A stretch of DNA of 64,000 nt, from the NCBI GenBank assembly GCA_025560025.1, contig CP048486.1:1328501-1392500 (forward strand), given 5' to 3'. This document shows positions 49,569 to 58,654 of the stretch, piece by piece; position 1 is the stretch's first letter, and the number at the start of each line of letters is the position of its first letter. The notes under the pieces are model-generated. The model saw only the letters and a list, made by a program, of their open reading frames with translations. It was not told the DNA's origin and ran no database searches. Both the position numbers and the translations under genes were made by a program. Source of the DNA: Agrobacterium tumefaciens (lineage in GTDB: Bacteria > Pseudomonadota > Alphaproteobacteria > Rhizobiales > Rhizobiaceae).

Positions 49569-50069
49569 TCATGCCGCTTTCTTCTGGGCCGCCGCATTGA
49601 TCGAAGTCTTGGCAAGCGATGTCAGCGCATCGTCTGTTTTGGTTTCTTCCTTGAGCGTGGCGTCCAGCAGGGAAACGACGTTGGCGTGTCCCAGCTTTTC
49701 CGCCCATGCCTTTAGGGTGCCGTAACGCGCGATCTCATAATGTTCGACCGCCTGGGCCGACGAAATGAGACCGGCATCGAGAGCCGCCGTGCCCTTGAAG
49801 TCATCCATGATCTCCTCGCCCTCGGCGATGATGCCCTGGATAGCTTCGCAGGTCTTGCCCTGCGCCCGCTTGCCGATCATTTCGAACACTTCCTGCAGGC
49901 GTTCGATCTGTCCCTGCGTTTCTTCCTTGTGCTTTTCAAAGGCCTGTTTCAGCTTGGTATCGGTTGCTGCCCGCGCCATCTTCGGCAGGGCTTTGAGAAT
50001 CTGCCTTTCGGCGTAATAGATATCCTTCAACGTGTCGTAAAACAGGTCGTCGAGTTTCTTCTCGGCCAT
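49569..50069 (-). CDS. Ferritin-like DUF892 (YciE/YciF) protein
   Basis: 166 residues from ATG at 50069 (GGAGAAGGACCA upstream). Long helices with the di-iron-like pattern: LDDLFYDTLKDIYYAERQIL, EKHKEETQGQIERL, SAQAVEHYEIARYGTLKAWA and LLDATLKEETKTDDALTSLA, matching the YciF/DUF892 family. These proteins are usually induced by general stress. It is transcribed alone from a sigma-EcfG-like promoter shared back to back with the MgtC-like gene. Confidence 0.9.
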   Translation of the reverse strand: MAEKKLDDLFYDTLKDIYYAERQILKALPKMARAATDTKLKQAFEKHKEETQGQIERLQEVFEMIGKRAQGKTCEAIQGIIAEGEEIMDDFKGTAALDAGLISSAQAVEHYEIARYGTLKAWAEKLGHANVVSLLDATLKEETKTDDALTSLAKTSINAAAQKKAA

Positions 50070-50121
50070 TGGTCCTTCTCCCATGTGTGAAAGTGCGTGG
50101 CGTGCGCCCGCACGGGAGACA

Positions 50122-50146
50122 AACCCTTCGCAGCTCCCATGGTTCC
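50122..50146 (-). promoter_or_regulatory. Sigma-EcfG promoter for the DUF892 gene
   Basis: On the minus strand: GGAAC at 50146-50142, 17 bases, GTT at 50124-50122. About 52 bases upstream of the start codon. Confidence 0.7.
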
Positions 50147-50180
50147 GGCTCCGTTGCGCGCAACATTTATATTGCTGCAG

Positions 50181-50205
50181 GGAACCAACAGGCTTTCCCT
50201 AACTT
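50181..50205 (+). promoter_or_regulatory. Sigma-EcfG promoter for the MgtC-like gene
   Basis: GGAAC at 50181-50185, 18 bases, TT at 50204-50205 (preceded by C), on the plus strand 32 bases before the GTG start. Divergent from the promoter at 50122. Confidence 0.65.
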
Positions 50206-50237
50206 ACTGTGCTGAAATTTCGGGAGGAGACACGACT

Positions 50238-50723
50238 GTGCCCCAAAGCCTTGCAGAAGAATTTTCCATGAATATCTCCATTCCCTTCGAGGTGCTGGTG
50301 GTGCGCGTTTTTGGTGCGGTCATCCTGTGCGGCCTGATCGGTCTGGAGCGCGAATTTCACAAGAATACTGCCGGTCTTCGCACCAATATGCTGATCGGTC
50401 TTGCAGCGGTCACTTTCTGCGTCATCACCATCCATATGATGGAGACGATGGCGGAGGGTCATGAGGCCGCGCGGCTCGATCCCATCCGGCTGGTGGAGGC
50501 CGTGACGGCGGGCATCGCCTTTCTGGCGGCAGGTGTGGTCGTCTATACCAGGGGCGATGTCAAAGGTCTGACGACGGGGGCAAGCATGTGGCTCTCCGCG
50601 GCGATCGGCCTTGCCGCCGGTCTCGGCATGTGGCCGCTGGCCATTGTTGCCGCCGGCATCGGCATCCTCGTCTTGTGGACGCTGCGCCGCATACAGGTGG
50701 TGGCGGGCATCAAGGACGAATGA
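50238..50723 (+). CDS. MgtC/SapB family membrane protein
   Basis: 161 residues from a GTG at 50238 preceded by GGGAGGAGA; an ATG at 50268 gives the minimal domain. Four to five hydrophobic helices with the family motifs AVILCGLIGLEREFH, GLRTNMLIGLAA, TAGIAFLAAGVVVYTRGDVKGLTTGASMW. Such proteins help survival at low magnesium or under acid stress, but the C-terminal soluble domain of true MgtC is absent, so this is the short form. Confidence 0.88.
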   Translation: MPQSLAEEFSMNISIPFEVLVVRVFGAVILCGLIGLEREFHKNTAGLRTNMLIGLAAVTFCVITIHMMETMAEGHEAARLDPIRLVEAVTAGIAFLAAGVVVYTRGDVKGLTTGASMWLSAAIGLAAGLGMWPLAIVAAGIGILVLWTLRRIQVVAGIKDE

Positions 50724-50730
50724 ACGGCGA

Positions 50731-51957
50731 TCAATCGAACCGGAAGAGATCGGCGTCGGGATCCTTGCCGCCATTGACGGCGGCAGCGATTATCTCGGCG
50801 GCGATCTGGCTGAAGGTGATGCCGTTACCCCCGAAGCCCATGACGGCGTAGACGTTCCTCATGCCGGGAACCGCGCCGATCAGCGGCAGGCCGGTGGTGG
50901 TGGTACCGAAGGCCGCCGCCCAGCGATATTCCGGCTCTCCGATGTCGATACCAAGGAGACTTTCTATCTTGCGCCGGATTGCGTCCTGTTTGGCAAAGAG
51001 CTTTCCTTCAGAAAGGTACGATGTCGGGTTTTCCTCATCTTCGCCCCCTGCGATCAGGCGTCCGTCACGGTCGGTACGCAGGTAGAGATAGGGATCGGAA
51101 GCCTCCCAGACGATATGGCTTTTCAGCCAGTCCGGCAGATCGATGCCCTTCCTGCTCGCCAGCGCCCAGGTGGAGATGATCTGATGTTTCGGGCTTTCCA
51201 GCGACTTCAGGAATTCGTATCCGGTGCAGAAAACGACATTGCGGGCGGAAAGGATCTTGCCCTGTGCGGTGGCGACGACCACCTCGTCACCGAGGTTTCT
51301 GAGATCGGTGATTTCCAGATGGGACACGATTTCCGCACCGGCGCCCGACGTGTGGCGCAAAAGGCCGGCCGTCAGCTGTGCGGGATTGGCGGAGGCCGAA
51401 ATATCGCTGAGGATAGCCCCAGTCCGATCGATGGCGTAGTCGCTCCTCAATTCGGCGGGGCCAAGGAAGCGCGCCGCAATCCCTGCTTCTTCCCGGGCTG
51501 CCGCTTCAGCCTTCAGCGCGCGCGACCCCATTTCGTCGCCGGCGAGATAAAGCGCCTGCTTGCGCGCCATGCTGCAGGATATGCCGAGCGAGGAAACGAT
51601 TTCCTCAAGACGCAGGACGGCCCGCGCCGAGCGTTGCCACGCCCGATCCGCAGCGTCCCTACCGATCATCTTTCTGAGTTCAGTCAGAGGAGTGTCGATC
51701 TCGTGTTGAATCATCGCGGTGCTGGCGACGCTGCTGCCCATTACCGGGTCACGCCGGTCGACGATCAGCATCGACTGGCCCGGCCTGTGCAACGCATGGG
51801 CCACAAGCGCGCCGCTGATGCCGGCACCCACCACGATCGTGTCATAATGGTTGGCTTCCGGGGTCTTTCCGCTGCGAATGCCGATGCGGGGCGTATCGGC
51901 CCACAGGGGTTTTGATTCCCTGAGGTCCCGTTCCTTCGTCAGTTCCGATGTGTGCAT
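50731..51957 (-). CDS. FAD-dependent amino-acid oxidase (DAO) family oxidoreductase
   Basis: 408 residues from ATG at 51957; frame extension to 52077 overlaps the preceding gene. FAD motif YDTIVVGAGISGALVAHAL and C-terminal GVPGMRNVYAVMGFGGNGITF-type closure (GFGGNGITFSQIAAE) are typical of the DAO/glycine oxidase family. Substrate unknown. It is the last gene of a minus-strand set after the TIGR02587 and TIGR02588 genes, with a 19-base gap. Confidence 0.82.
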   Translation of the reverse strand: MHTSELTKERDLRESKPLWADTPRIGIRSGKTPEANHYDTIVVGAGISGALVAHALHRPGQSMLIVDRRDPVMGSSVASTAMIQHEIDTPLTELRKMIGRDAADRAWQRSARAVLRLEEIVSSLGISCSMARKQALYLAGDEMGSRALKAEAAAREEAGIAARFLGPAELRSDYAIDRTGAILSDISASANPAQLTAGLLRHTSGAGAEIVSHLEITDLRNLGDEVVVATAQGKILSARNVVFCTGYEFLKSLESPKHQIISTWALASRKGIDLPDWLKSHIVWEASDPYLYLRTDRDGRLIAGGEDEENPTSYLSEGKLFAKQDAIRRKIESLLGIDIGEPEYRWAAAFGTTTTGLPLIGAVPGMRNVYAVMGFGGNGITFSQIAAEIIAAAVNGGKDPDADLFRFD

Positions 51958-51976
51958 GAAAGTGTCCTGAAAGGTC

Positions 51977-52387
51977 TCACGGCTCGGTATAGCCGGCGAC
52001 GTTGATGATGAGTGTTCCGTTTTGGGGATTGTTTCGGAAGAAGAGCGTGCCGGTGTCGCGGGATTCCGAGGCGACATAATCGAATGTCACGTCGGCGCTT
52101 TCCAGCGTGGCGGCATTTTGCTGCAGGTCGCCGCGCACATGCACCTGCGCCGCCGTCGTCATCGAGAGGTTGCGAATGTCGAAACTCACCCGGTACTGTC
52201 CCGCCTGTGCCTCGACGTCCGTGACGGCAAACTCGAAACGGGCCTTGTCCGGCTTGTAGCGATAGATGTCATAGCCGATCCAGCCGAGCATCGCGACGAC
52301 AAGAAGCGTACAGACGGCGCCCGTCAGCCACTCCACCCAATGCGGCTTGGGGCTTTCAACATGTTTGCGGCCCTTCGATATGGTCAT
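51977..52387 (-). CDS. TIGR02588 family membrane-anchored protein
   Basis: 136 residues: short cytosolic N-terminus, one transmembrane helix (about 20-42, LTGAVCTLLVVAMLGWIGYDI), and a periplasmic beta-rich domain (FEFAVTDVEAQAGQYRVSFDI, then the TAAQVHVRGDL segment) of the type found beside TIGR02587 proteins. No enzyme motif. Seven bases separate it from the TIGR02587 gene. Confidence 0.85.
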   Translation of the reverse strand: MTISKGRKHVESPKPHWVEWLTGAVCTLLVVAMLGWIGYDIYRYKPDKARFEFAVTDVEAQAGQYRVSFDIRNLSMTTAAQVHVRGDLQQNAATLESADVTFDYVASESRDTGTLFFRNNPQNGTLIINVAGYTEP

Positions 52388-52394
52388 TTTTTCC

Positions 52395-53252
52395 TCACAG
52401 GATCAGCCGGGCAGAGGCTGCGCCGATCGAAGCGGGAACACCGAGAATGACGGCGGCATTCATGATCTGCGACAGCGAGGTATGGTCGAGACGTTCGAAG
52501 GTCCAGAGCGTGTAGATACTGATGGCAATGGCGATGACATAACCGGGCAGGGTGAAGCGCAGGAAGGACTGCCACCATTCCTGCCCCTCGTGCACTTGGT
52601 GCGACCCCTTGAAATGAAGCGCATAAACGAAGCCGTGCATGATCGCGATCGAGACCAGGCAAAGCGCCAGAATGTGATAGGGAGTTACTTTGTAGGCAAT
52701 CAGGATCATTTCTTCCGTCGGGGCGACATTGAGGCTGAGAAAAAGCGCGCCGACCATCATCATGAAGAGTTCGTGCAGATAACCCGTCTCGCCGGAATAT
52801 TCGCCATCGTCCTCATCCTCGGTGTCGGAATGTTCGCCGAGCTGGCTGCGGCCAAGCAGCGCCCCGATGCTGGCGGGCACGGATTGCAGGGCGATTTTGG
52901 CGATGAGATTTGAGGTGGTGAGCTGATCGTTCAAAATGCCGAACAGCAAAAGTACGGCGGCGCTGACGGCAATGCCCAGCCCATAGGCCGTTATCGCGTC
53001 GCGTAGCGCCTGTGTCCGGGAATGAATATTTTCAAAGCCGATGCGGCGGGCGAGCAGGAAAAGCAGCGGCAGGTTGAGGATGCAAAGCAGCAGAAGCCGC
53101 CAGGAATTGATGTAAAGGCCTAGAAACCACATTTCCATGGTCATCAGCATGGGCAGGGCAAACAGCAGTGCGCCTGCCGTTCCACGTGCCAGACCGATCA
53201 GAAATTGCCTGACTTCATCACTATCCGCATCTTTTCGTGTGATTGCCGCCAT
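52395..53252 (-). CDS. TIGR02587 family integral membrane protein
   Basis: 285 residues with six to eight hydrophobic helices and a charged cytosolic loop rich in Asp and Glu (HSDTEDEDDGEYSGETG, about 142-158). The conserved GTAGALLFALPMLMTMEMW and LFLSLNVAPTEEM segments mark the family. Function unknown; always seen with a TIGR02588 partner. First gene after the promoter at 53275. Confidence 0.85.
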   Translation of the reverse strand: MAAITRKDADSDEVRQFLIGLARGTAGALLFALPMLMTMEMWFLGLYINSWRLLLLCILNLPLLFLLARRIGFENIHSRTQALRDAITAYGLGIAVSAAVLLLFGILNDQLTTSNLIAKIALQSVPASIGALLGRSQLGEHSDTEDEDDGEYSGETGYLHELFMMMVGALFLSLNVAPTEEMILIAYKVTPYHILALCLVSIAIMHGFVYALHFKGSHQVHEGQEWWQSFLRFTLPGYVIAIAISIYTLWTFERLDHTSLSQIMNAAVILGVPASIGAASARLIL

Positions 53253-53274
53253 TCGTCCCCCTGCATGAAGAGAT

Positions 53275-53299
53275 AACGCAGTGGCGTTTTTCCGGTTCC
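53275..53299 (-). promoter_or_regulatory. Sigma-EcfG promoter for the TIGR02587/TIGR02588/oxidoreductase genes
   Basis: On the minus strand: GGAAC at 53299-53295, 17 bases, GTT at 53277-53275. It fits in the 52-base gap after the DUF296 gene, 23 bases before the TIGR02587 start. Confidence 0.72.
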
Positions 53300-53304
53300 G
53301 TTGG

Positions 53305-53745
53305 TTATTTTGCGGGATCGATGAGTGCTATGCCGAATTCGCGGCGGTAACTGCGCCGCAATTCCGCCGGTGTCTCGCGAATGACGACTTCGAGCGTCGG
53401 GCGCACCACCCCCTTCAGGAAATGGCCGCCTTTCGTAGAACCGTCGGCAAAGCCCAGAACAACGTGCAGGTGCGGATTTGGGGTGTCGTTTTCGTCAAGC
53501 GTAATATCGCCAAGCAGGCTCAGAACCTCGCTCTGCTCCGTCACGGGAATTTCCTTATATTCGCGCGTCGAAAGGTCGAAAAAAGCGAGCGTCGCAGTTG
53601 AAAAGGCACCTATCGCGGTCACCGACGCAGCGTTGATGTTTTCCGATTTTGCGAAGCGGCGGATCGCCTCGAATGCCTCTTCCTCCGGGTCGATGACAAG
53701 AATGAAGGCACGTTCGGCACCGGTGACCAGCAATCTACTTTTCAT
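53305..53745 (-). CDS. DUF296 (PPC/PCC domain) protein
   Basis: 146 residues forming one PPC domain: FILVIDPEEEAFEAIRRFA, ASVTAIGAFSTATLAFFD, the NPHLHVVLGFADGSTKGGHF metal-site region with His residues, and VVIRETPAELRR. Related to AT-hook plant and archaeal proteins but without a DNA-binding arm; a trimeric enzyme or ligand-binding role is likely. Follows the PfpI-type gene after a 57-base gap holding a stem-loop. Confidence 0.85.
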   Translation of the reverse strand: MKSRLLVTGAERAFILVIDPEEEAFEAIRRFAKSENINAASVTAIGAFSTATLAFFDLSTREYKEIPVTEQSEVLSLLGDITLDENDTPNPHLHVVLGFADGSTKGGHFLKGVVRPTLEVVIRETPAELRRSYRREFGIALIDPAK

Positions 53746-53763
53746 GGATGTCTCCCAATAAAA

Positions 53764-53786
53764 GTGCCGCCGGCAAGCGGCGGCAC
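53764..53786 (-). terminator. Stem-loop between the PfpI-type and DUF296 genes
   Basis: Perfect 9-bp stem GTGCCGCCG / CGGCGGCAC with a 5-base loop, followed on the minus strand by TTTTATT. A partial terminator lowering DUF296 expression relative to PfpI. Confidence 0.65.
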
Positions 53787-53802
53787 AGGAATGTCATGCA
53801 CC

Positions 53803-54363
53803 TCAGGCGGCGCGGCGTTCGTGGCGGCCTTCCTCGACCTCCTCGACGATTTTCGCAACGAAGGCATCTAGGTCTTCCGGGCTGCGGGACGTGATGATGC
53901 CCTTGTCCGTCACCACCTTTTCGTCCTTCCAGTTGGCGCCGGCGTTTTTCAGGTCGGTCTTGATCGACCAGTAGGAAGTGGCGTTACGGCCGCGCAGGGC
54001 ATCCGCTTCAACGAGAAGCCAGGGGGCGTGGCAAATCGCAGCCACGACCTTGCCGGACTTGACGAAATCGCGAATGACGCGCATCGCATCCTCGTCGTGG
54101 CGCAGGACATCCGGATTGATCTGGCCGCCTGGAAGAACCAGCGCATCGAAGTCATCCGATTTGATGCTCCCGGCGGAAAGATCGACGGCAATGCTGTCGC
54201 CCCAGTCCTTTTTATCCCAGCTCCTGATCTCGCCTTCCTTGATTGAGGCGATCTTTACGTCCGCACCCTTGGCCTTCAACTGGTCATAGGGCACGCGCAG
54301 TTCGGAGCGCTCATAGCCGTCCGTTGCGAGAATGAGGATCTTTGCAGCGTTGATGGCAGTCAT
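53803..54363 (-). CDS. DJ-1/PfpI family protein (YhbO-like, class I glutamine amidotransferase fold)
   Basis: 186 residues. The nucleophile elbow AAICHAPWLL has the conserved Cys-His, with the acidic partner region YERSELRVPYDQL near the N-terminus; DDFDALVLPGGQINPDVLR is the flavodoxin-like strand. The family includes proteases, chaperones and protein or nucleotide deglycases active on methylglyoxal damage, and is often stress induced. It follows the small gene at 54382 by 18 bases. Confidence 0.88.
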   Translation of the reverse strand: MTAINAAKILILATDGYERSELRVPYDQLKAKGADVKIASIKEGEIRSWDKKDWGDSIAVDLSAGSIKSDDFDALVLPGGQINPDVLRHDEDAMRVIRDFVKSGKVVAAICHAPWLLVEADALRGRNATSYWSIKTDLKNAGANWKDEKVVTDKGIITSRSPEDLDAFVAKIVEEVEEGRHERRAA

Positions 54364-54381
54364 ATCTGTCTCCTTATGGGT

Positions 54382-54603
54382 TCAATCATCCTTGTCGGAA
54401 TTCACGGAAGGGAGAAAAAATTCCACGTCCTTCAGGCGTTCCTCGTCGAGATTTTCGATGTTGGTCTGCCAAAATCTCTCCGCTTCCGCCGGTTCGTCTT
54501 TCCATTGGCGCACGAAGGTCTTGTTGTCGTCGATCATGACCTGGCGGGTTCCGCCGAGCCGCAGATATTCTTCCGCAAGTTTACGCGTTTCGGTCTTTTC
54601 CAT
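54382..54603 (-). CDS. Small hypothetical protein, 73 residues
   Basis: From ATG at 54603 (AAGGAGCCGCGAC upstream). Charged, helical, no cysteine or membrane segment: starts MEKTETRKLAEEYLRLGGTR and ends VEFFLPSVNSDKDD. No family recognised. First gene after the promoter at 54761, cotranscribed with the PfpI-type and DUF296 genes, so probably part of the general stress response. Confidence 0.72.
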   Translation of the reverse strand: MEKTETRKLAEEYLRLGGTRQVMIDDNKTFVRQWKDEPAEAERFWQTNIENLDEERLKDVEFFLPSVNSDKDD

Positions 54604-54760
54604 GTCGCGGCTCCTTATGCGTGGAAAGCGGGGACGGAGGGACGCCGGATGGGTAAGAAGCTCGGCTGCCATTTCGTTGGCCACCGGGAGAAAACGGAAA
54701 AATCCCGATGTTCTTCAGCGCCATCGCGTCCGTTTGACACGGCGGCCCTCCTGCCAGAAC

Positions 54761-54785
54761 AACGTGGGCTTTCCTATATGGTTCC
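54761..54785 (-). promoter_or_regulatory. Sigma-EcfG promoter for the 54603-53305 operon
   Basis: On the minus strand: GGAAC at 54785-54781, 17 bases, GTT at 54763-54761. It leaves a leader of roughly 150 bases before the ATG at 54603. Confidence 0.68.
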
Positions 54786-54841: not shown

Positions 54842-54867
54842 GGAACAAACGGGCCAGGCCCGCTGTT
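54842..54867 (+). promoter_or_regulatory. Sigma-EcfG-like promoter for the amidohydrolase/DUF1704/ATP-grasp cassette
   Basis: GGAAC at 54842-54846, 18 bases, GTT at 54865-54867 (equal to GGAAC-N19-TT), 25 bases before the first ATG. It is divergent from the promoter at 54761. Confidence 0.6.
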
Positions 54868-54892
54868 TTACCCCCGATGCAGGGGAGGCAGC

Positions 54893-55723
54893 ATGGCAGC
54901 CGGACAGAGCGACGACGAATATCGCGGCAATAACGAAAACAAGGGTTTCTGGTCGATCGACTTCGGCAATTCGCCCGTCATCGGCACGGCTATTCATGAC
55001 GGTCATCGCATCCGTCCCGATATAGCCGGCCTGATGGCACTTTCCCCGGACAAGCGGCTGCGGGAAGAAGATCCGTTTACCGGCGCGATGATTGCAGGGA
55101 TGACCAACCGTATCGTCGTTCATCATTCGCGTTTTGAAATCGATCTCAACCGCGCTGCCGATCAGGCGATCTATTTAAAGCCGGAACAATCCTGGGGCTT
55201 GGAGGTCTGGAACGGGCAGCCGCCCGAAGACGCGCTTCGCCAATCGCTCGATTTTCATGCCGACTATTACACGATGCTTGAAGCGGTTCTTTCAACGGTT
55301 GAGCGCCGGCATGGCGCTTTCGTGGTGCTGGACGTGCATAGCTATAATCATCGCCGACAGGGCGCTGCCGCGCCGCCAACGGCGCAGGCGGAAGCGCCCG
55401 ACATCAATATTGGCACCTATTCCATGGATCGTAGCCGCTGGAACGATATCGTCAGTGCGGTGGGCCGTCATTTTGCATCCGCGACCATTGGTGGGCGCCG
55501 CCTCGATGTGCGCGAGAATGTGGCCTTTCAGGGCAAAGGAGAGCAGACCCGCTTCATTCATGAGCGCTTTGCGGAGAATGGCTGCGCCATCGCGATCGAA
55601 TTCAAGAAATTCTTCATGGATGAGTGGACGGGAGAGGCGGATGCGCGCGCGGTGGCGGATATTCGCGACACGATTGCAGCACTTCAGCCGGTCATTGAAG
55701 AATGTCTGAGATCGCGGCGATGA
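54893..55723 (+). CDS. N-formylglutamate amidohydrolase-like protein
   Basis: 276 residues from ATG at 54893 (AGGGGAGGCAGC upstream). Zinc-amidohydrolase features of PF05013: AIHDGHRIRPDI with His35 and His38, HHSRFEIDLNR, and VVLDVHSYNHRR with the third His. True N-formylglutamate deformylase works in histidine breakdown, but no hut genes are nearby, and here it heads a cassette with DUF1704 and ATP-grasp proteins. Its real substrate is therefore likely an N-acyl or peptide compound. Overlaps the next start by 4 bases (ATGA). Confidence 0.8.
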   Translation: MAAGQSDDEYRGNNENKGFWSIDFGNSPVIGTAIHDGHRIRPDIAGLMALSPDKRLREEDPFTGAMIAGMTNRIVVHHSRFEIDLNRAADQAIYLKPEQSWGLEVWNGQPPEDALRQSLDFHADYYTMLEAVLSTVERRHGAFVVLDVHSYNHRRQGAAAPPTAQAEAPDINIGTYSMDRSRWNDIVSAVGRHFASATIGGRRLDVRENVAFQGKGEQTRFIHERFAENGCAIAIEFKKFFMDEWTGEADARAVADIRDTIAALQPVIEECLRSRR

Positions 55724-57597
55724 ATATATCCTCCGCCCGCAATGCGCCGTCCCCCATCGCCGATCTGGTTGATGATGTCGTGTCATGCCTCGAGGCCGGC
55801 AAGGCCGTCCGCCGCGATGTCGGAAAAGATGGCCGCCTGCATATCGACCGGCCGCTGCCGTTCCTCTGTCTGCATCTGACGGGCGGCACGAAAGACCTCG
55901 CCGCGCGCGATATCGCCGCTGCCCATGCATCCTATCTCATCGCCTCCACCATTCAGGAGGCTGCGCCGCTGATCGAGGCCGTGGGCGCCGCCATGCGGCA
56001 GCGTTTCGGCGCTTTCATGGTGATTGATATCGGCGAGCTGGAACATGATATTCTTCTGGCCGACGATTCCCCCTTCCTGCCGCATTATGAAGTTTCCGTC
56101 TCCGCCACGGCTGAACCGGAAACGCAAAAGGCGCGCCGGGTCTTCATCAAAGCGGTTTGTGATGCCGAGGTGCGGTTTCGCACGCCGCGCATTATCCGGC
56201 CGGAACCGGATGCCGATCCGATCCTCAGGTTTCAGAATGCCGGGCTGGATTTCCCCTGCATCAGCGTGCGTTTTGCGCCGATCTATCGTCAGCCGGAATC
56301 CGGAGCGGATTATCCTGGCCTGCGCGAAACGATGATCGCCGATCTTTTCGATGCCGGTTTGCAGGCTTTCTCTTCATTTGCTTCCGGCATGGATGCACTC
56401 AAGGTCACCAGCCACCGGGCACTCGGCCGCAAAGCCTTCGTCGATGCAGTCAGACGTGCGGATCGTTCGATCGACGACATTGTCTCTTCCTTCGATTTTC
56501 TTCTGTCCGTCACACCGATCAATGCTCGCCGGGCCTTCGAGGAGTTCCGCGATGGCGGCTTTCAATATGCGCCGCGCCTGCTCTATCGGCCGCTCGGTGT
56601 CGATGTCGAGGAGCAGAAACGCAAGCTCTATTCGGTCGTTTTCGATCATCTGGAAGACCCGGTGCTCTATCACCTCTACCGGGAAAAACAGCGGGAGATC
56701 GATCTGCAGCTGACGATGCTTGCAAGCCTGCACCATCGCACCTTCACCGATTTTTCACGCGCCCTGTATGGCGCCGTGGAACCCGCACTTCTGACACTCG
56801 CGCTTGGTGTGCTCAAGGATTGTCCGCGAAAGGAAGAAGGCGGCGAAATCGCCATGGTCGATTGCTACGCGGTCGCCAAGAAGTCGCGGGAGATGGTCGA
56901 GACCTATCTGGCGGAAGACCCGGAATTCAAGGCGCGCGTCGAGATCCGTGACGACCTGCCGCCGGGCCTAATGGTGACGGGCGAGAAGCTTCTGATTTCC
57001 CGCCACACCGTCATGGAACAGCGCCGTGTCGAGGCGCTGCTGTCGCATGAGATCGGCGTGCATCTTCTCACCTATTTCAACGGCTCGTTTCAGGGCTTGC
57101 GGCTCTTTCGCACCGGCCTTTCCGGTTATGAGGGCGTGCAGGAAGGGCTGGCGGTGCTGGCGGAACATCTGGCCGGCGGCATGACGCGCGAGCGCCTGCG
57201 GCTGATCGCCGGCCGCGTTATTGGCTGCGCCGCCATGCTGGATGGGGCAAGCTTCGTCGAGACCTTCCGCATCATGACCCGCGACCACGGTTTCGATGAG
57301 GCCGGGGCCTTCAACATGGTGCTGCGCATCTATCGCGGCGGCGGTCTTTCCAAGGACGCGATCTATCTGCGCGGGCTGGCGGAGGTGCTGGAGCATCTGC
57401 GCAGGGGCGGGGCGCTCGATCCGTTCTGGATGGGCAAGATCGCCGCCGCCCATTTTCCGGTGATGCAGGAGCTGGCCCTGCGCGGCCTGCTTCGTCCGCC
57501 GGCTGTCAGACCCGCATTTCTGCTGCCCGCCCGGGCTAATGAGCGGCTGGAAAAAATACGGGCTGGGTTATCCATTGCCGAACTGGCGACATTATAG
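55720..57597 (+). CDS. DUF1704 / QEGLA-motif protein, putative metallocarboxypeptidase
   Basis: 625 residues from the coupled ATG at 55720 (ATG at 55702 also in frame). The family is annotated as flavohemoglobin expression-modulating QEGLA motif protein (TIGR02421). Its zinc site is visible: HEIGVH at residues 443-448 (HExxxH) and Glu475 in VQEGLAVLAEHL. Eukaryotic DUF1704 members (MATCAP) are detyrosinating carboxypeptidases with the same residues. The N-terminal about 280 residues resemble an N-formylglutamate amidohydrolase domain fragment (LIASTIQEAAPLIEAVGAAM, RVFIKAVCDAEVRF), seemingly without a full zinc set, so this may be a fused regulatory domain. An aminoacyl-end protease activity is inferred. 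Confidence 0.82.
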   Translation: MNISSARNAPSPIADLVDDVVSCLEAGKAVRRDVGKDGRLHIDRPLPFLCLHLTGGTKDLAARDIAAAHASYLIASTIQEAAPLIEAVGAAMRQRFGAFMVIDIGELEHDILLADDSPFLPHYEVSVSATAEPETQKARRVFIKAVCDAEVRFRTPRIIRPEPDADPILRFQNAGLDFPCISVRFAPIYRQPESGADYPGLRETMIADLFDAGLQAFSSFASGMDALKVTSHRALGRKAFVDAVRRADRSIDDIVSSFDFLLSVTPINARRAFEEFRDGGFQYAPRLLYRPLGVDVEEQKRKLYSVVFDHLEDPVLYHLYREKQREIDLQLTMLASLHHRTFTDFSRALYGAVEPALLTLALGVLKDCPRKEEGGEIAMVDCYAVAKKSREMVETYLAEDPEFKARVEIRDDLPPGLMVTGEKLLISRHTVMEQRRVEALLSHEIGVHLLTYFNGSFQGLRLFRTGLSGYEGVQEGLAVLAEHLAGGMTRERLRLIAGRVIGCAAMLDGASFVETFRIMTRDHGFDEAGAFNMVLRIYRGGGLSKDAIYLRGLAEVLEHLRRGGALDPFWMGKIAAAHFPVMQELALRGLLRPPAVRPAFLLPARANERLEKIRAGLSIAELATL

Positions 57598-57607
57598 GAG
57601 GGGCTTC

Positions 57608-58654
57608 ATGCGTATCGCATTTTTCGTCAATTCCATCGAAACCGAGGGACCGAACTACGCGACCGGCCTGCTTGCCATGGCGGCGCTCAATCGCGGCCAC
57701 GAGGTGGTCTATCTGACGCCCGGCGATTTCACGTTGCGCTCGGACGACAGCCTGACCATCCATGCCACGGTGCTGCCGAAGGCGAAATACAAGAAATCGG
57801 ATGCGTTTCATGCTGCCCTGCAGGACAAGGCGCTGGAACGGCGGACCATGGATGTGGAGGAAATCGATGCGTTGATGCTGCGCAACGACCCCTCTCTCGA
57901 CCAGACCACACGGCCATGGGCGGTGCATGCCGGCATCCTGTTCGGGCGGCTTGCCGAACAGCGTGGCGTCGTGGTTCTGAACGATCCCGAAGGTCTGGCG
58001 CTCGCGCAGAACAAGCTCTATTTCCAGAGCTTTCCCGAAATCGTCCGCCCGACCACGATCATTTCGCGCAATGTCGAGGAAATCCGCGCCTTTGCCGACG
58101 CGCACCCCAAGGGCGTCATCGTCAAGCCGCTGCAGGGCTCCGGCGGCAAGAATGTCTTCAAGATCGGCTCCAGCAAGGAGACCAATCTCAACCAGATTTT
58201 CGAGGCGGTGAGCCTCGAAGGTTATCTGATCGCGCAGGCCTATCTGCCGGCCGCCAAGGATGGTGATATCCGCTTCTTCATGATGAATGGCCGCCCGCTG
58301 ATGCGCGACGGTCAATATGCCGCCCTGCGCCGCGTGCCGGCGAAAGGCGATCTGCGCTCCAACATTCACGCCAAGGGCACCGCCGAGGCGGTGAAAGTGA
58401 CGGACGAAATCGTGGCGCTTGCCGATATGATGCGGCCGAAGCTGGTGGAAGACGGCATGTTCCTTGTCGGGCTGGATATCGTTGGCGACAAGATACTGGA
58501 AGTGAACGTGTTTTCCCCGGGTGGCCTTTCCAATATCCGCGATCTCACGGAGATGGATTTCAGCGACACGATCATTGAGGCCGTCGAAACCAAGATCACC
58601 ATGCAGAGCGCTTCCGGCGGCACCATCTCCAACCGCCTGCTGGCGACGTTGTGA
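57608..58654 (+). CDS. ATP-grasp ligase, glutathione synthetase-like
   Basis: 348 residues from ATG at 57608 (AGGAGGGGCTTC upstream). N-terminal MRIAFFVNSIETEGPNYATG, then the ATP-grasp lid GVIVKPLQGSGGKNVFKIG near residue 170 and metal-binding LVGLDIVGDKILEVNVFSPGG near 285-305, as in GshB-type peptide ligases. True GshB of rhizobia is a different, shorter and better conserved protein, so this is a paralogue. Eleven bases after the DUF1704 gene; the enzymes probably form and cleave the same bond. Confidence 0.82.
   Translation: MRIAFFVNSIETEGPNYATGLLAMAALNRGHEVVYLTPGDFTLRSDDSLTIHATVLPKAKYKKSDAFHAALQDKALERRTMDVEEIDALMLRNDPSLDQTTRPWAVHAGILFGRLAEQRGVVVLNDPEGLALAQNKLYFQSFPEIVRPTTIISRNVEEIRAFADAHPKGVIVKPLQGSGGKNVFKIGSSKETNLNQIFEAVSLEGYLIAQAYLPAAKDGDIRFFMMNGRPLMRDGQYAALRRVPAKGDLRSNIHAKGTAEAVKVTDEIVALADMMRPKLVEDGMFLVGLDIVGDKILEVNVFSPGGLSNIRDLTEMDFSDTIIEAVETKITMQSASGGTISNRLLATL

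Follow-up and report, generated by a model that had tools for sequence, protein, structure and literature searches.

The 64,000-nucleotide stretch of Agrobacterium tumefaciens DNA analysed here (contig CP048486.1, positions 1,328,501 to 1,392,500; hereafter the window) belongs to a genome of 5.68 Mb in four contigs. Open reading frame (ORF) and family scans of the window reveal three consecutive genes, called A, B and C below, which lie on the + strand as a tight operon. They encode an amidohydrolase of the N-formylglutamate amidohydrolase (FGase) family, a protein ending in a MATCAP metallopeptidase domain and an ATP-grasp ligase of the GshB family. The three genes are linked near-obligately, and their products may together write and erase an amide bond. 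The operon is laid out as follows:

54893..55723, + strand: gene A, FGase-family (PF05013) amidohydrolase, 276 aa
55720..57597, + strand: gene B, 625 aa, a decayed FGase domain followed by a MATCAP metallopeptidase domain
55807..56409, + strand: degenerate FGase-like domain of B, residues ~30-230, motifs of A absent
56461..57564, + strand: MATCAP/QEGLA domain of B, residues 248-615
57046..57063, + strand: HEIGVH, the HExxxH zinc motif, B residues 443-448
57139..57153, + strand: QEGLA with the third zinc-ligand Glu, B residue 475
57608..58654, + strand: gene C, GshB-family ATP-grasp ligase, 348 aa (NF009110)

Gene A scores 96 bits against the Pfam FGase family PF05013 (gathering score 28.9), gene B 321 bits against MATCAP (PF08014; cut-off 27) and 450 bits against QEGLA/TIGR02421 (cut-off 338.65), and gene C 185 bits against GSH-S_ATP (cut-off 23) and 494 bits against NF009110 (cut-off 408). 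An earlier note on this DNA had described an N-formylglutamate amidohydrolase-like protein, a DUF1704/QEGLA protein with HEIGVH and the QEGLA glutamate, and a GshB-like ATP-grasp ligase, in this order, and the scores and the two located motifs bear it out. The tight coupling that it saw holds for the ATGA overlap of A and B at 55720-55723, but the gap between B and C is 10 bases, not 11. Its starting point for the unit, 54842, has no start codon but marks where a promoter-like motif begins; gene A starts at ATG 54893, which is preceded by a ribosome-binding site, AGGGGAGG. The decayed FGase domain of B, the fused form and the stress/osmotic setting, all described below, were absent from that note.

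All A proteins of the cassette examined (32/32) match PF05013 at E ≤ 0.001, and H35, G37, D84, N86, R87, D147, H149, E236, K238, K239, M242 and E244 are invariant among them; gene A carries the cassette motifs IHxG, SRFxxDxNR, DxHxYN and ExKKxxMxE. It fails the HutG equivalog TIGR02017 (28 bits, cut-off 278.75), and neither the single protein nor a 32-row profile matched a solved FGase structure by sequence at E 0.01. Gene B is 94% identical to the representative of a cluster of 474 sequences and ~80% identical to named Agrobacterium proteins. It consists of two domains, the first ~230 residues being a degenerate relative of gene A, with which they share a common origin; in a structure comparison of the predicted model this N-terminal domain also resembles M14 carboxypeptidases. 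The zinc-site residues H443, E444, H448 and E475 align with those of the human MATCAP structure 7z5g and are invariant in 46/46 aligned long B proteins, so that a loss of these residues across the family, which was looked for, did not occur. The predicted structure of B (pLDDT 91.7) has the MATCAP fold in its C-terminal domain, as the comparison with MATCAP proposed earlier had anticipated. The literature found on DUF1704, QEGLA and TIGR02421 gave no explanation of the "flavohemoglobin" link, one paper merely using the name.

Gene C belongs to the GshB family as a distinct subfamily. It lies below both GshB equivalog cut-offs (218.8 versus 272 and 198.9 versus 299 bits) and below the RimK family cut-off (77.3 versus 143.4 bits), while its predicted structure (pLDDT 91.2) has a GshB-type ATP-grasp fold with GshB as the nearest solved relative and RimK second; in both sequence and fold it is closer to GshB than to RimK. 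When set against GshB and TTL, as the earlier note had proposed, C is GshB-like, and TTL is probably not its nearest relative, there being none among the fold matches listed or the sequence matches. Every C of the split type, in which A and B are separate genes, matches NF009110 ("glutathione synthetase") at E 1e-20 (37/37), and the equivalents of E. coli GshB K125, K160, D208, R210, R225, R233, D273, E281 and N283, which presumably have functional roles in that enzyme, are invariant in all 37. These proteins have Phe-x-Pro-Gly versus Thr-Ser-Pro-Thr in structure 1gsa and in the genome's own GshB. An RSNxHxGG loop was initially considered as a RimK-like signature of C and was dropped because the GshB of the same genome carries the loop too; the surviving loop difference is Pro-Gly in C and RimK versus Pro-Thr in GshB. 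That other GshB (247 bits) is encoded in the genome along with a GCS2-family protein. Moreover, three of 15 carriers (from Poribacteria, Calditrichaeota and Kiritimatiellae, all metagenome-assembled) have no match to the GshA families PF04107 and PF04262, other types of GshA not having been searched, and in these three C is the only GshB-family match above 160 bits.

The linkage of the three genes extends far beyond this genome, which confirms the co-occurrence that the earlier note had suggested surveying. Among the loci collected (L numbers; genomes carry G numbers), C lies within 300 bp of a long MATCAP gene in 101 of 104 distinct cases, the remainder being L188, where the contig ends, L184, where C is 806 bp away behind A and both lie on the strand opposite B, and L076. 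Gene A accompanies the long MATCAP in 98 of the 104, being fused to it in 6 (one decayed), no more than 300 bp away in 90 and no more than 3 kb away in 2. Six remain: L076, L080, two that sit on L179, a short contig, and, ~4 kb from A, the second B of L183 and that of L197. For part of the short forms the flanks were examined, and A or C above 100 bits was found at 0/27 loci of short or solo MATCAPs (the frame-broken L195 excluded); L102 of this set has an 87-bit GshB-like frame ~5 kb off. Across 398 sampled genomes of the phylum, the C profile at E 1e-60 detected 8, 7 of them with a MATCAP match (in G727 a frame cut to 283 aa), and the eighth, 82% complete, has C at a contig start. This profile missed fused-type C genes because scoring was limited to at most five candidates per genome; the missed genes are visible in the fetched loci of those genomes. 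Among 150 genomes of the Vibrio family (that of G795), C at E 1e-60 is present in 54, every one with MATCAP; it adjoins 52 of 56 long MATCAPs, the others being in G1066, G1083 (near a contig start), G1006 and G950. Of 11 shorter matches it adjoins one (G957).

MATCAP itself is patchy, with 9/385 genomes of the class, 19/199 of the family and 47/398 of the phylum in overlapping samples. Long-form carriers occur in at least 10 phyla (Pseudomonadota, Bacteroidota, Planctomycetota, Acidobacteriota, Actinomycetota, Poribacteria, Kiritimatiellota, Gemmatimonadota, Calditrichota and Verrucomicrobiota), a lower bound, as 80 of at least 567 confirmed loci were used and the query was the long form; beyond Pseudomonadota and Pontibacter many carriers are metagenome bins, and five of the ten phyla rest on one locus or pair.

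At six loci (L071-L075 and L079) the FGase domain is fused to MATCAP in one protein of 660-703 aa with C adjoining. L079 is the only one from the class to which the window belongs, the five others being from elsewhere in the phylum. The FGase motifs are kept in L072-L075, kept with substitutions in L079 and decayed in L071, and a profile of standalone A recognizes the fused FGase domain with probability 100 (E 1.8e-39). In Pfam, both domains are present in most of the listed proteins of Thalassotalea, Colwellia, Vibrio, Shewanella, Ferrimonas and Pseudoalteromonas. When 78 MATCAP domains were arranged in a quick tree, its root not fixed, the short forms, the fused together with solo forms, and the split forms fell on separate branches, and the form labels need 3 changes, which is the minimum. 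On the fused-form branch stand the solo MATCAPs of ~390 aa in L099, L115 and L117, with neither an FGase domain nor C nearby. Planctomycete arrays in L183 (7.9-15.8 kb) and L197 (6.2-14.1 kb) have the gene order A-B-C-C-B-C, with two MATCAP proteins from separate branches and three ligases, and doubled genes occur in L179 too. In L195, on a Rhizobium plasmid, the matches to A, B and C are each broken across two frames, which looks like a decayed copy.

A stress or osmotic setting of the cassette is supported by counts. EcfG is the general-stress sigma factor of alphaproteobacteria. Two sites in front of the operon resemble its promoters:

54842..54867, + strand: EcfG promoter-like motif GGAAC-N18-GTT, 25 bp 5' of the ATG of gene A
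54761..54785, - strand: divergent EcfG-like motif, facing a small ORF (54382-54684) and a DJ-1/PfpI gene

By its letters the first site fits the pattern GGAAC-N16-20-GTT, so that it may be an EcfG promoter; published forms of the motif are GGAAC-N16-CGTT (PMC3892343) and GGAAC-N17-20-GTT (PMC6599016). Upstream of A, GGAAC-N16-18-GTT is present at 20 of 61 alphaproteobacterial loci versus 11 of 538 other genes there, with N17 in 8 and N18 in 12 of the 20; no other spacing from 8 to 29 occurs more than 6 times, the opposite strand gives 4/61 and the next best of 30 letter permutations gives 6. In the window there are 9 such motifs versus 4.3 expected, a number reached in 3/100 shuffles, and four of them, at 50.1-54.9 kb, each lie just 5' of a gene: those for DUF892 and DUF2391, the small ORF and A.

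The run of genes beside the cassette at 49569-54684 encodes DUF892, an MgtC family protein, an FAD oxidoreductase, TIGR02588, DUF2391/TIGR02587, a PCC domain and DJ-1/PfpI, and with EcfG-like motifs 5' of several genes it looks like a general-stress island. The small ORF at 54382-54684 on the - strand encodes ~73 aa from an internal ATG and has no Pfam or NCBIfam match. Such a ~73-aa protein occurs near A, at varying places, at 7 loci including the window; relatives near cassettes are those of the Sinorhizobium-type L128, L134, L135, L138 and L145, and also L082.

Neighbouring genes were counted at 28 loci outside the main alphaproteobacterial group, three of them (L065, L066 and L079) belonging to the same class as the window. 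Among 88 near proteins there are 9 LysR, 6 MscS, 4 CorA and 3 MgtE_N, versus 2 MscS and at most 1 of each other such family (LysR, CorA, MgtE) among 88 far controls; the first 25 families were listed, and single-member families may be hidden in either list. Of 102 near neighbours, 88 were scanned with Pfam (omitted were all those of L193, four in number, a further nine that were mostly short and a single very long ORF); the far set was drawn at random, 88 of 131. MscS, CorA or MgtE lies within ~2.7 kb of B at 9 of the 28 loci, and in L071 an MscS gene begins 21 bp past B on the same strand. In the Magnetococcales locus L192 (7970-15115), A-B-C-RloA-RloB-RloC follow in a row on one strand (PF05618, PF14402/PF14400, PF14397), and RloA-type peptidases are reported to be required by Pseudomonas aeruginosa in hypo-osmotic medium (PMC12239564). 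The retropepsin-like PF05618 was not found among the window proteins in the Pfam scan; elsewhere it is full-length beside the cassette in one genome (L077, L192) and, in L080, present as a fragment of 88 aa (39 bits).

In Photobacterium damselae at 1% versus 3% NaCl, A0J47_RS17020 ("GshB"), A0J47_RS17025 (QEGLA) and RimK are reported to be up 38.4-, 27.5- and 52-fold, respectively, the ligase being treated by the authors as a glutathione synthetase (PMC10308900). Judged by tags, names and locus order, the first two are probably a two-gene cassette, because their tags look consecutive and fit the C-then-fused order of Vibrio L072. Low salt and the EcfG response are separate cues in separate organisms, so "osmotic" is a theme here with no shown trigger.

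The reading that we favour, with a probability of about one half, is that the cassette is a stress-induced cytoplasmic module which writes and erases an amide bond on a short peptide. As a GshB/RimK-type ATP-grasp enzyme, C would couple an amino acid to a carboxyl group at the expense of ATP; the MATCAP domain of B, as a zinc carboxypeptidase, would remove the C-terminal residue again; and A would cleave that bond too, or else the N-acyl amino acid set free. B's dead FGase domain is probably where A docks. As substrate we consider most likely a short peptide of the cytoplasm, perhaps rich in glutamate, with a level that is tuned in osmotic or ionic stress. The reaction, its direction, its site, the contact between A and B and the substrate are what we infer in this proposal.

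Several points weigh against it. The activities of A, B and C are all predicted from sequence and models. The Photobacterium genes are assigned to the cassette by their tags and names and by the occurrence of the fused form together with C elsewhere in the Vibrionaceae. Just 20 of 61 alphaproteobacterial loci, which are related, show the EcfG motif; near and far neighbours were drawn from one set of loci, and two MscS are among the far ones as well. In L071 the fused FGase is decayed and an intact A was not found, and L080 and L076 are without A; therefore not every B has FGase activity beside it. At L076 the long B is without C as well. In the Vibrio family no C was found in G950 and G1006, each of which has a long MATCAP frame, and in G1066 C is 53 kb away. 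The ligase and the peptidases could also act on different substrates.

Instead of a short peptide, the substrate could be the C-terminus of a specific cellular protein, to which C would add, and from which B would remove, an amino acid or a glutamate chain, in the manner of TTL/TTLL, MATCAP/TMCP and CCP on tubulin and of RimK/RimB on ribosomal protein S6. B shows both the fold and the zinc residues of MATCAP, TMCP/MATCAP enzymes are reported to remove polyglutamylation too (PMC10499314), RimK is the second-best fold of C, and RimK/RimB is a proven bacterial cycle of this kind, with C-terminal polyglutamylation of S6 and its removal (PMC11957791). The earlier note's cycle of ligation and removal was a fair inference with a bacterial precedent; the protein C-terminus that it offered as one substrate is a candidate only. 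C is nearer to GshB than to RimK in both sequence and fold. FGase relatives are thought to work on small molecules. A substrate encoded beside the cassette, whether peptide or small protein, was sought among 875 ATG-started ORFs of 25-99 aa lying within 600 bp of the cassette or between its genes; after clustering, the eight largest clusters (at most 4 members) were alphaproteobacterial or Pontibacter only, with no ORF common to several phyla, and this candidate was rejected. On balance we regard a protein tail as unlikely.

A wider conjecture, which we would call rather unlikely, is that bacteria have in this cassette a counterpart of the tubulin-tail code, a dedicated system in which an ATP-grasp enzyme attaches amino acids, glutamate perhaps among them, to C-termini and a MATCAP and an M14-like FGase-fold enzyme remove them for stress and osmotic adaptation, and which could predate the eukaryotic use. 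On tubulin, eukaryotes employ these three fold classes in TTL/TTLL, MATCAP/TMCP and CCP. The analogy with MATCAP and TTL drawn in the earlier note stands for the fold and zinc residues of B, but its TTL half is weak, C being GshB-like first and RimK-like second.

It seems improbable that A and B serve a catabolic salvage, degrading N-acyl amino acids or peptides that are imported or set free under stress while C reuses one of the products in a different reaction. The two-to-one ratio of hydrolases to ligase, the FGase family membership of A and the arrangement of L184, where A and C stand together on the strand opposite B, would suit it, but C is almost never apart from long B, and no catabolic enzyme or uptake transporter is frequent among the 88 near proteins in the first 25 families listed. 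Highly improbable, despite the NCBIfam label and GshB as nearest solved relative, is that C is a second glutathione synthetase with A and B recycling glutathione or its conjugates, given the scores under both equivalog cut-offs, the genome's other GshB, the three metagenome-assembled carriers with no PF04107/PF04262 match and the Phe-x-Pro-Gly of the 37 split-type proteins.

The protein families are already known. No earlier description of the cassette was found in the literature searched, which excluded the 2009 amidoligase survey of Iyer and colleagues; as that survey may well list the neighbourhood, priority is not claimed for the module, the decayed-copy architecture, the spread or the stress setting, of which we found no earlier account. 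MATCAP is known from animals as a trimmer of tubulin tails, and the bacterial name "flavohemoglobin expression-modulating" says little on function. Here one large bacterial branch, in ten named phyla, is tied to two partners, a ligase and a further hydrolase, and contains a dead copy of the latter. If the favoured reading is true, this branch gains a testable function, the label "glutathione synthetase" on many genomes and the published GshB reading of one gene come into question, and the chemistry of tail trimming has a bacterial setting for its origin.

How the cassette compares with known systems can be summarized as follows. It differs from GshB in that C is a distinct subfamily, found in three metagenome-assembled carriers without detectable GshA, and tied to the genes for A and B. 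The operon for the osmolyte NAGGN combines an ATP-grasp synthetase with an M42 peptidase; like the cassette, it has a ligase and a metallopeptidase, there around an osmoprotectant dipeptide, but the families of both enzymes are other ones. M14 carboxypeptidases are the class to which CCP belongs. The C-terminal domain of B has the fold and zinc residues of MATCAP/TMCP (KIAA0895L, KIAA0895), C is an ATP-grasp enzyme and the N-terminal domain of B resembles M14 carboxypeptidases, all as in the tubulin-tail enzymes; in contrast, C is probably not closest to TTL, there is no tubulin and the fusion partner of MATCAP is FGase-like. With RimK/RimB, which is reported to be under environmental control (PMC11957791), the cassette shares an ATP-grasp amino-acid ligase and a peptidase that would undo its work, but RimB is a retropepsin-like aspartic peptidase whereas the cassette's erasers would be a MATCAP zincin and an FGase, and C is of the GshB family, its 77 bits lying below the RimK cut-off of 143. 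The rlo operon (RloA-RloB-RloC) of P. aeruginosa, reported to be needed in hypo-osmotic medium (PMC12239564), likewise pairs a ligase-type protein with a peptidase; an exported aspartic peptidase and a membrane transglutaminase-like protein belong to rlo and neither is in the cassette. In the Magnetococcales genome the two kinds of operon directly adjoin each other.

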